Shown here: positions 51,199-53,213 of the stretch, in pieces
Layout: each line of letters starts with the position of its first letter
Numbering within the stretch: position 1 is the stretch's first letter
NCBI GenBank assembly: GCA_004020545.1
Contig: SAQE01000038.1
Coordinates: 1 to 59,343, forward strand
Direction of reading: 5' to 3'
Length of the DNA: 59,343 bases
Source: Mesorhizobium sp.
Lineage (GTDB): Bacteria; Pseudomonadota; Alphaproteobacteria; Rhizobiales; Rhizobiaceae
The notes under the pieces: generated by a model
What the model was told of the DNA's origin: nothing
The model's database searches: none
Seen by the model: only the letters and a program-made list of their open reading frames with translations
Position numbers and translations under genes: made by a program

Positions 51199-52278
51199 TC
51201 AGGTCCTCGGGGCAGGGCCGGTCGAGGCCCTGACCACGAGTTCGACACCCATCGTCTCGCGCCGCACCGCGCCGTCATAGTCAAGAATCATGCGCGCGGC
51301 CCGCCGGCCGATTTCGGCGATCGGCTGGGCGATGGTGGTCAGCGGCGGGTCGCAGAGCGCGCCCTCCGGCACGCCGTCGAAGCCGACGATGGAAACGTCC
51401 TCCGGCACCTTGAGGCCCCGTGCCGTCAGCCATTCGATGGCGATCAGGGCCATCCGGTCCGACATCGCCAGGATCGCGGTGGGTGGCTCCGCACCGGCGA
51501 AGATCGTTTCGAGACCGGCTTTGGTGCTCGTCTCCTCGTTGCCGGTCTCGTAGACCGGCACCTTATTCGTATCGATGCCGAAGCGCGAGAGCTCCTCGAA
51601 ATAGCCGGCAAGCCGGTCGCGCGTTGCGGTGTAGAGCGCCGTCCCGAGCCGCTCGGGCGTCACAAGACCGGTGCTGTCGTCAACGAAAGGCAGCGACAGA
51701 ACGGCGAAACGGCGATGCCCAAGTTCGCCGAGATGACGCGCAGCCAACCTGGAGCCGGCGACGTTGTCGATGCCGATCATCGAGATGGTGTCGTCATCGA
51801 AGCCAATCGCGAGCGCGACGAAGGGAAGCCTGCGTTCGCGCGTCAGCTCGACGAGGCGAGGGCCGCCCTCGATGCAGAACAGGATGAAGCCGTCGACCAA
51901 GGCACTCTGGATGTTCCAAGCGAGTTTTTCGTCATTCTGAGCCGATACCAACGCAATTCCAGCACCGGTGGCGTCGCATGCCTGCGAGATGCCGGCCATC
52001 ATGACGCGGGCGAAGGGGTCCTCGAAGAAATAGGAGAGGGGCTCGGTCGTGCCGACGCCGATGGCGTTGACCTTGCCGGCGCGCAACAGGCGCCCCTTGG
52101 GGTCGGGGCCGGCATAACCCATCGCCTCCGCCACCGCCTTGACCCGCTCGCGCACTTCCTGGCGCACGATCTCCGGGCGGCTGAAGACATTGGAGGCCGT
52201 GCCATGCGAGACGCCAGCCGCCTTGGCGATATCCGCCAGCCGAATGGGTCGTGCCTGGCCTTCGATGGGTGATGCCAT
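51199..52278 (-). CDS. LacI family transcriptional regulator
   Basis: A 359-residue repressor. The HTH is at about 12-35 (IRLADIAKAAGVSHGTASNVFSR, with the LacI hinge following) and the periplasmic-binding-protein-like effector domain covers about 70-345 (GVGTTEPLSYFFEDPFARVM; SIVGFDGVPEG). The effector is unknown, normally a sugar. No sugar transporter or enzyme is adjacent. Upstream, in the divergent region, are palindromic LacI-type sites framing a promoter for two small genes. It is convergent with opgC (7-bp gap). Confidence 0.92.
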   Translation of the reverse strand: MASPIEGQARPIRLADIAKAAGVSHGTASNVFSRPEIVRQEVRERVKAVAEAMGYAGPDPKGRLLRAGKVNAIGVGTTEPLSYFFEDPFARVMMAGISQACDATGAGIALVSAQNDEKLAWNIQSALVDGFILFCIEGGPRLVELTRERRLPFVALAIGFDDDTISMIGIDNVAGSRLAARHLGELGHRRFAVLSLPFVDDSTGLVTPERLGTALYTATRDRLAGYFEELSRFGIDTNKVPVYETGNEETSTKAGLETIFAGAEPPTAILAMSDRMALIAIEWLTARGLKVPEDVSIVGFDGVPEGALCDPPLTTIAQPIAEIGRRAARMILDYDGAVRRETMGVELVVRASTGPAPRT

Positions 52279-52348
52279 GTCGTTCCTCCGAATCCGGTCA
52301 CATCACGAACATGACCGCGGAATGGTTGCCGGTCATCTAACATTATTC

Positions 52349-52362
52349 TTGGATCGATTCAA
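52349..52362. promoter_or_regulatory. LacI-type operator, site 1
   Basis: TTGGATCGATTCAA, a near-perfect palindrome centred on ATCGAT, 71 bp upstream of the LacI start and 9 bp before the -35 box of the divergent promoter. Confidence 0.75.
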
Positions 52363-52370
52363 ATTTCCGC

Positions 52371-52398
52371 TTGACCTGGAAAGCGAAAAGCTTATGTT
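52371..52398 (+). promoter_or_regulatory. Promoter of the small paralogous genes
   Basis: TTGACC (52371-52376) and TATGTT (52393-52398) are separated by 16 bp. The -10 ends where operator site 2 begins, so repressor bound there would block RNA polymerase. The start codon of the first small gene lies 60 bp downstream. Confidence 0.6.
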
Positions 52399-52411
52399 TG
52401 AATCGATCCAA
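52398..52411. promoter_or_regulatory. LacI-type operator, site 2
   Basis: TTGAATCGATCCAA, the exact reverse complement of site 1, centred 49 bp away and touching the -10 box. With site 1 it makes a larger inverted repeat around the promoter. Confidence 0.75.
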
Positions 52412-52458
52412 GTGTTCTTCTGCTTCCTGAAGCGGAGCAGGGTTGAGAGGAGGGTGCC

Positions 52459-52602
52459 ATGCATCCGGTCAGCTATCTGTTCGAAGACGTCTACCGCAAC
52501 GACTGGGGCATCGCCTCGGCCGAGGTGAGCGAAAAGCGCCGCGGCAAGGCAAGTCCGTGGAAGCGCCAGCCGCGCTTCATCGTGGAACGCAAGCGCGTTT
52601 AA
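52459..52602 (+). CDS. Small basic protein A of a paralogous pair, 47 residues
   Basis: The ATG follows a very strong ribosome site (GAGAGGAGGG). The product begins MHPVSYLFEDVYRNDWGIAS and ends in a basic tail (WKRQPRF, ERKRV). It shares MHPxSxLFxDxYRNxWGI with the next gene, 56 bp downstream, while the tails differ: the conserved head and two separate strong ribosome sites show that both are real genes. No membrane segment is present. The control region holds a promoter framed by two LacI-type sites. I know no family; a regulator-binding, protein-binding or nucleic-acid-binding peptide is possible. Confidence 0.7.
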   Translation: MHPVSYLFEDVYRNDWGIASAEVSEKRRGKASPWKRQPRFIVERKRV

Positions 52603-52628
52603 GGGCGATTCTTTTTCGTGTCGATCGA

Positions 52629-52642
52629 TTGGATCGATTCAA
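52629..52642. promoter_or_regulatory. LacI-type operator, site 3
   Basis: TTGGATCGATTCAA, identical to site 1, placed between the two small genes and 16 bp before the second start codon. A partial copy (ATCGATTGG) overlaps it on the left. Confidence 0.7.
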
Positions 52643-52658
52643 TTCAAGGAAGTCAGCC

Positions 52659-52796
52659 ATGCATCCTATCAGCCATCTTTTCCAGGACATCTATCGCAAC
52701 TATTGGGGCATCTCGCCGGCGGTCGACCGGCCTGAGCGGCCGCGCGCGGCGGAGCCGGCGATGCGCAGGCGGAAGCTGCGTCTGGTTCGCCGCTGA
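52659..52796 (+). CDS. Small basic protein B of a paralogous pair, 45 residues
   Basis: The ATG has AAGGA eight bases upstream. The product begins MHPISHLFQDIYRNYWGISP, matching protein A at 14 of the first 18 positions, with mostly conservative changes, and ends MRRRKLRLVRR. The middle is proline- and arginine-rich. Between the genes lies a third LacI-type site, so B can be controlled with A or separately. No known family is recognised. GC content is like that of core genes, so the pair does not look recently acquired. Confidence 0.7.
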   Translation: MHPISHLFQDIYRNYWGISPAVDRPERPRAAEPAMRRRKLRLVRR

Positions 52797-52838
52797 CCTC
52801 GCCGCTCGGCGCGAGCCTCGCTCCGATGAAGGGGCGCT

Positions 52839-53213
52839 CTAGGACCGTGAGCGCCATAGCGCCGAGAGCGCGATCGCCAGCCAGCCGGCGATAAGCAGAG
52901 TGCCGCCGATCGGCGCCGACATCGGAAACAGCCGCGAGCCGAGAAAATCCCGGGCGAGAAGATCGCCCGAGAACAGCAGCAGGCCGACGAGCAGAATCAG
53001 GCTTGCGATCCTGAGGCACCGGTTGCCGCCAATAAGGCCGATGGCGAGGAAGACCGGCGCATGCATCAATAGAAAAGACGCCGCCGTGCCGGTAAAGGCG
53101 CCGCCGCGATGCGCGGCGGCGGCCGACAGCGCCACACCCGCGGCGCCGACGAGCCCGCCCACCAGAACGAGGACAGGGCTGCCGCCGTTCGAGGACTGCC
53201 CGGCAAGGTTCAT
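52839..53213 (-). CDS. DUF423 family membrane protein
   Basis: A 124-residue protein with four hydrophobic helices, GGLVGAAGVALSAAAAHRGG near the N-terminus and SAPIGGTLLIAGWLAIALSALW at the C-terminus: the DUF423 (YgdD-like) pattern. Function unknown. It follows the MFS gene on the same strand with 30 bp between and may be co-transcribed. Confidence 0.88.
   Translation of the reverse strand: MNLAGQSSNGGSPVLVLVGGLVGAAGVALSAAAAHRGGAFTGTAASFLLMHAPVFLAIGLIGGNRCLRIASLILLVGLLLFSGDLLARDFLGSRLFPMSAPIGGTLLIAGWLAIALSALWRSRS

Follow-up and report, generated by a model that had tools for sequence, protein, structure and literature searches.

The window, by which is meant the whole 59,343-nucleotide stretch of Mesorhizobium sp. 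DNA analysed here (assembly GCA_004020545.1, contig SAQE01000038.1, positions 1 to 59,343 of the forward strand), carries a lacI-family gene that is divergent from two tandem genes for microproteins, A and B (Table 1). Both microproteins begin with a head of the form MHPxSxLFxDxYRNxWGI, A consisting of MHPVSYLFEDVYRNDWGI plus a basic tail and B of MHPISHLFQDIYRNYWGI plus a different basic tail. According to the cited passages of PMC4052901, most studied LacI regulators control sugar-use genes, and nearly 90% are local regulators concerned with sugars; in several families of the order, the LacI orthologs described here are linked to a gene for a tiny protein.

A preliminary description of this DNA, drawn from its letters alone, had proposed tandem genes of 47 and 45 codons, each with its own ribosome site, a shared head and a different basic tail, together with a promoter framed by two LacI-type sites and a third site between the genes. 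The genes were found as described, and the sites proved to be three exact copies of TTGRATCGATYCAA, the only ones in the whole assembly of 6,993,374 bases and 188 contigs. When the window was shuffled, three operator sites were reached in 1 of 100 shuffles, even with two mismatches allowed. The position of the predicted promoter places O1 upstream of the -35 element and O2 over the expected start of transcription, and no terminator-like site was found within 52250-52950. The LacI itself has both the N-terminal helix-turn-helix (HTH) domain and the periplasmic-binding-like effector domain of its family (41.6 bits for PF00356, cut-off 27, and 111.6 bits for PF13377, cut-off 26.5), and the nearest solved structures by sequence are the LacI-family regulators 3h5t and 5ysz.

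Table 1. Features of the lacI/A-B locus (positions in the window)
Feature	Positions	Strand	Basis
lacI-family repressor gene, 359 aa	51199..52278	-	PF00356 and PF13377 above cut-off; orthologs divergent from a small gene at examined loci
Predicted operator O1, TTGGATCGATTCAA	52349..52362		Exact consensus, one of the genome's 3; O1-O2 pair in 82/84 loci
Predicted A-B promoter, TTGACC-16-TATGTT	52371..52398	+	Consensus scan, 1 found vs 0.2 in shuffles; TTGA-type -35 conserved
Predicted operator O2, TTGAATCGATCCAA	52398..52411		Exact consensus; overlaps expected transcription start
Ribosome site of A, AGGAGG	52448..52453	+	Sequence; relatives show purine-rich sites before A
Microprotein A, 47 aa	52459..52602	+	Intact in 30/34 genus members; dN/dS 0.24, head 0.07
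Predicted third operator, TTGGATCGATTCAA, between A and B	52629..52642		Exact consensus; relatives have a site in a similar place before B
Ribosome site of B, AAGGAA	52646..52651	+	Sequence
Microprotein B, 45 aa	52659..52796	+	Compact intact form in 33/34 genus members; dN/dS 0.31, head 0.10

Conservation and selection of the microproteins

Four of the checks put forward in the preliminary description, namely conservation, tandem order, LacI neighbour and substitution ratio, came out in its favour. A tblastn search with A found one or both genes, with lacI divergent, in 34 of 37 genomes of the genus, the genome of the window included, and in 0 of 24 others. The 34 genus genomes, one of them split over two contigs, were read at base level: A is intact in 30, decayed in two (L058, L061) and not found in two (L060, L062), and B has its compact form in 33, L062 having a single longer form. 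Some Mesorhizobium genomes have thus lost A or carry it decayed, with B and lacI kept, and single longer forms occur in L062, L185 and L186. In a named genome collection, 105 stretches encode a relative; 78 of the 80 listed are titled Mesorhizobium and the other two Hyphomicrobiales or Rhizobiales bacterium.

The ratio of non-synonymous to synonymous substitution (dN/dS), which had also been suggested as a check, was calculated from mean p over pairs that are not independent and amounts to 0.24 over 30 sequences of A and 0.31 over 33 of B; the decayed L058_A and L061_A and the long L062_B were left out. For residues 2-18 the ratio falls to 0.07 in A and 0.10 in B, and third codon positions show about twice the divergence of the other positions. 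Their sequences show A and B to be conserved genes under purifying selection. Their tails carry a mean charge of +6.8 (A) and +5.5 (B), with arginine making up 16.5% and 20.1%, respectively. The idea that the microproteins form an amphipathic helix was dropped, since the hydrophobic moment was not significant for A and four relatives (B, p 0.023).

Orthologs of the LacI and their divergent small genes

Among 394 genomes of the family, which represent 109 genera, LacI orthologs (E up to 1e-75) were found in 37 genomes from 16 genera. Eighteen of the 37 adjoin MHP microproteins such as A and B, and at each of the remaining 19 a different small gene follows operators of a similar kind: seven of the MIPxxYLFKDLYxxRWG...AWSFTIP type (55-97 aa), ten with a DUF1127-like stretch (85-92 aa) and two of neither kind (L254, L271), with start codons at these 19 loci chosen by the author. 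Across the order, 43 of 337 genomes match the LacI at E up to 1e-55, 33 of them outside the family. Orthologs of at least 59% identity reach three further families and account for 18 of these 33; the 16 examined (all except G661 and G675) have 12 MIPxSY[L/F]F-type microproteins and four DUF1127-like proteins. A small gene stands beside LacI at all 19 further family loci and, at 59% identity or above, at 16/16 of the loci examined outside the family. That the same LacI accompanies, in other genera and families, either one microprotein alone or a DUF1127-like protein is a point that the preliminary description had missed. The absence of microproteins outside the family, which had been considered because the A2 (type-1) profile gave three weak partial matches there and nothing more among 397 genomes of the order, was rejected: the LacI search revealed the MIP forms, so the profile is too narrow.

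Also outside the family, two loci with a LacI of 52% identity (L298, L299) have small open reading frames (ORFs) of neither kind, and among LacI proteins of 41-51% identity (n=13), no A/B-like or DUF1127-like small gene was recognised at the eight loci examined (L300-L307). One of these, L305, has three operator-like palindromes, and in another, L304 (G646:C27, LacI 44%), a divergent gene of 147 aa is preceded by two palindromes of another sequence, TTGAAGCGCTTCAA, at a distance of 55 bp from each other. LacI matches on plasmids (3948 records) were not counted: all are below 60% identity, and at the locus of the best one (41.2%) both the palindrome and the divergent gene are different ones, the gene being longer. 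In L224 (Rhizobium leguminosarum plasmid NZ_CP071627.1, 6475-8035), a LacI of 41% identity, two TTGGAGCGCTCCAA palindromes and a divergent hypothetical protein form a similar layout with a different target.

The wider surroundings are less constant than the pair itself. On the lacI side, 31 of the 47 type-1 loci show DMT, ate or rdd genes; a further 15 show only DUF423, on the other side (most of them with a flank of 5-6 kb), and L182 shows none. The 19 other family loci show none of the seven marker genes. The gene lists of nine of those 19 loci, read by eye and unsystematically annotated, contain no recognised sugar operon. Across these differing surroundings, lacI and the small gene stay paired.

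The small proteins in this slot fall into two main classes. Profiles of the groups that bear the head motif match one another in hhalign (95.3%, E 2.2e-8, 22 columns; 96.7%, 3.5e-10, 38 columns; 94.6%, 6.8e-8, 20 columns). No Pfam or NCBIfam model was matched by 17 members, and a profile search of the PDB with the A1 profile gave two matches at chance level (E 0.22 and 4.2). As far as their sequences tell, the M[H/I]PxSYLFxDxYxxxW microproteins, comprising A, B and their cousins, are a new small-protein family without a family model. The DUF1127-like set is distinct from it: the type-1 and MIP profiles have no homology to that set detectable by hhalign (0.7% and 11%), and PF06568 matches neither A nor B at E 0.1, nor any of 17 family members at E 0.01. 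Ten of ten members of the DUF1127-like set match PF06568 at E up to 0.1 (best 9.9e-6), singly mostly under the gathering score, and the set matches a profile of seven DUF1127 proteins from the genome of the window (hhalign 90%, E 1.7e-6). Among the four DUF1127-like proteins from other families, one is over the PF06568 gathering score, two are under it and one (L311) has no match, being assigned by a BLASTP match to another DUF1127-like member. Mapped onto a LacI tree thinned to 64 rows, the DUF1127 label requires two changes and the microprotein label three.

In the 394 family genomes, the A1 profile matched 20, of which 18 adjoin a LacI ortholog and two (G128, G425) are weak and lie elsewhere. 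The operator-pair pattern matched 14 of the same genomes in one place each, 14/14 at the microprotein locus, and its reversed control matched none; the remaining four of the 18 real MHP loci have an operator with one mismatch. The dedicated, putatively sugar-responsive switch proposed in the preliminary description is supported in part: this LacI is conserved with the small proteins and largely dedicated to them. Of the 84 loci compared, 82 have O1 and O2 at a spacing of 44-51 bp and a TTGA-type -35 element 5-8 bases after O1, the -35 element being the best local match, a choice that favours consensus letters; the exceptions, L271 and L310, have palindromes at other spacings. A third site lies 20-72 bp after O2 in 56/84 loci, and in other genera a single gene is often preceded by three sites, or a second gene by a fourth. 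From this it would seem that the site between A and B arrived together with a duplicated unit of operator plus gene.

These palindromic, CG-centred predicted LacI sites are conserved and vary with the recognition residue of LacI. Over 66 loci, the recognition-helix residue after GVS was compared with operator position 6: H goes with T in 46 of 47 cases, the exception being C in L271; K is paired with C in 10/10, Q with T in 7/8 plus one tie, and R occurs once, as a tie. The K rows form one clade, so this co-variation comes close to a single event. Taken at the level of the DNA, the promoter logic is well supported.

Predicted targets and proposed role of A and B

The preliminary description had held that the apparent targets of this LacI are only the tiny proteins. 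That part stands for exact sites, which occur only at the lacI locus both in the window's own genome and in 9/9 relatives; it does not stand for near matches, as conserved one-mismatch sites lie at other genes. Elsewhere in the genome there are four such sites against one for the reversed control. The site TTGAATCGATCTAA (G000:C112:49495-49508, L028) precedes a gene of the MFS family, is surrounded by a TTGACT...TAATTT promoter and is kept in 8 of 9 relatives (L312-L314, L316-L320) amid variable flanks, with an orthologous MFS gene following in 9/9 loci compared, its own included. The site TTGGATCGATTCAT (G000:C106:27180-27193, L027) overlaps the start of a second MFS gene and is kept in 7 of 9 relatives (L340-L346), and TTGGTTCGATTCAA (G000:C179:14822-14835, L029) lies just before an oxidoreductase-like gene and is kept in 4 of 9 (L347-L350). 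The fourth site directly precedes another LacI gene, and other one-mismatch sites in relatives are scattered. The second MFS gene resembles a 3-phenylpropionate transporter, scores above the NCBIfam general MFS cut-off and has no clear ribosome site before its start; the gene near TTGGTTCGATTCAA appears, by eye only, to be Gfo/Idh/MocA-like and ThuA-like. Through these near-match sites at two MFS genes and the oxidoreductase-like gene, the LacI regulon may be wider than A-B, and it is possible that the TTGAATCGATCTAA site is a second target of the A-B LacI or a target of another LacI. As for a sugar uptake or catabolism operon, none was found as the linked target, which is A-B.

The explanation favoured here, to which we give about an even chance, is that the LacI responds to an effector and serves mostly to control a small regulator, which acts in trans in the manner of the small DUF1127 proteins. 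Without its effector, probably a small carbohydrate-like molecule, LacI would block transcription by occupying O1 and O2 on either side of the A-B promoter; O1 probably also serves to autoregulate lacI. Binding of the effector would free LacI, and A and B would be made from one transcript with two ribosome sites. The two microproteins would then act in trans as small regulators, with the conserved M[H/I]PxSYLFxDxYxxxW head binding a partner while the arginine-rich tail varies. That they would do the job of small DUF1127 proteins is suggested by the DUF1127-like proteins that fill the same LacI-controlled slot in other genera. LacI residues R222 and D301, which we take to be positions of effector contact in the LacI family, are invariant in 58 of 58 orthologs, aligned with PurR, and this fits a small-molecule effector.

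A broader form of this proposal is more tentative, and we rate it somewhat short of even. It holds that an effector-sensing LacI system across several Hyphomicrobiales families has the making of a tiny trans-acting regulator as its purpose, and that two unrelated classes of micro-regulator, the M[H/I]PxSYLFxDxYxxxW family and the DUF1127-like proteins, stand in for one another where sensor and promoter layout are shared, as interchangeable outputs acting on one shared target, for example a sensor kinase or an RNA-turnover protein.

Several observations weigh against the favoured explanation. A and B do not match DUF1127, and the likeness in function is drawn from the shared slot alone; several of the DUF1127 scans fall under the gathering score, and L311 lacks a Pfam match. 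The strongly supported branches of the LacI tree force only one change each of the DUF1127 and microprotein labels, and the co-variation of LacI with its operators involves few independent events, with L271 pairing H with C. A is decayed or not found in 4/34 genus members. Finally, the conserved one-mismatch operator before the MFS gene, together with two more such sites, opposes a regulon with one target.

The last point also speaks for a different role, in which the microproteins would serve a transporter as local helpers: LacI would control an unlinked MFS permease as well, and A and B would tune that permease when its substrate appears. The retention of the TTGAATCGATCTAA site amid variable flanks, its promoter and its orthologous MFS gene are in keeping with this, as are the other recognition residues of the seven LacI paralogs read, of 16 in this genome. 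However, relative G003 is without the near-match MFS site, and we consider this role unlikely. Less probable still is that the microproteins feed back on LacI as a protein effector and tune their own synthesis. LacI is the most constant neighbour of the microprotein family, and a protein co-repressor of a LacI-family regulator is known, namely HPr-Ser46-P (cited passages of PMC4052901). However, regulation already explains the co-conservation with LacI, and a specific contact with LacI would not predict that non-homologous DUF1127-like proteins adjoin orthologous LacI.

The short ORFs behind a regulated promoter could also be a leader or attenuation element, or RNA rather than peptide could be the product. 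Purifying selection on the amino acids of A and B, with the excess divergence at third codon positions, argues against this, as does the lack of a co-directional structural gene downstream, the next gene (DUF423, 52839-53213) being on the opposite, minus strand. Rfam gave no match near threshold, its lone snoRNA match lying far below the gathering score and being taken as chance, and such an element is very improbable. Two tiny tandem genes under a repressor likewise recall a toxin-antitoxin or phage-defence pair, and yet the two are paralogs of one another, and forms with only one gene are frequent. PADLOC assigned no family to A, B or LacI and PHROGs gave no match for A, B and one relative, which is weak evidence in itself; a pair of this type has next to no probability.

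Compared with known systems, the sugar-related regulator SgrR of enteric bacteria resembles the LacI described here in having a small protein, SgrT, as output, a likeness of description only. SgrR, though, lies outside the LacI family, and the source of SgrT is a regulatory RNA. The local LacI/GalR regulators covered in the cited passages of PMC4052901 share the HTH and periplasmic-binding-like domains, palindromic CG-centred operators (predicted ones in the present case), a divergent target and several sites per promoter; unlike them, the conserved linked target here is a tiny protein gene. According to the cited part of PMC12595884, three small DUF1127 proteins with a link to the use of L-fucose are under the control of Brucella VtlR, which is thus also a transcription factor with tiny, sugar-linked proteins among its main outputs. 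However, it is a LysR-type activator that acts on DUF1127 proteins and a small RNA (PMC12595884).

The small DUF1127 proteins (PF06568) resemble A and B in being tiny and arginine-rich and in having DUF1127-like counterparts in the same LacI slot of other genera; they differ in that A, B and their cousins have neither a PF06568 match nor detectable homology to that set. In the cited part of PMC12501420, small DUF1127 proteins of Agrobacterium bind the sensor kinase PhoR, and Rhodobacter CcaF1, another small DUF1127 protein, binds RNA. The swap between the two classes offers an experimental handle on the question, raised in PMC12501420, of whether small DUF1127 proteins work through RNA or through sensor kinases, and an orphan ORF of 47 aa becomes a candidate regulator with a predicted LacI switch. 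No description of a LacI-microprotein system was found in the open-access literature, judged by titles and the openings of abstracts, and the word LacI is absent from the main text of a paper on the small proteome of Sinorhizobium meliloti (PMC10117765).

The neighbours of the locus in the window are OpgC, DUF423, an MdtG-like MFS gene, which is under its NCBIfam cut-off, and a GntR/FCD regulator. The predicted N-terminus of the OpgC-type gene (PF10129, 49971-51191) contains a repeated RDTRINDRDARINGRDTRID stretch.
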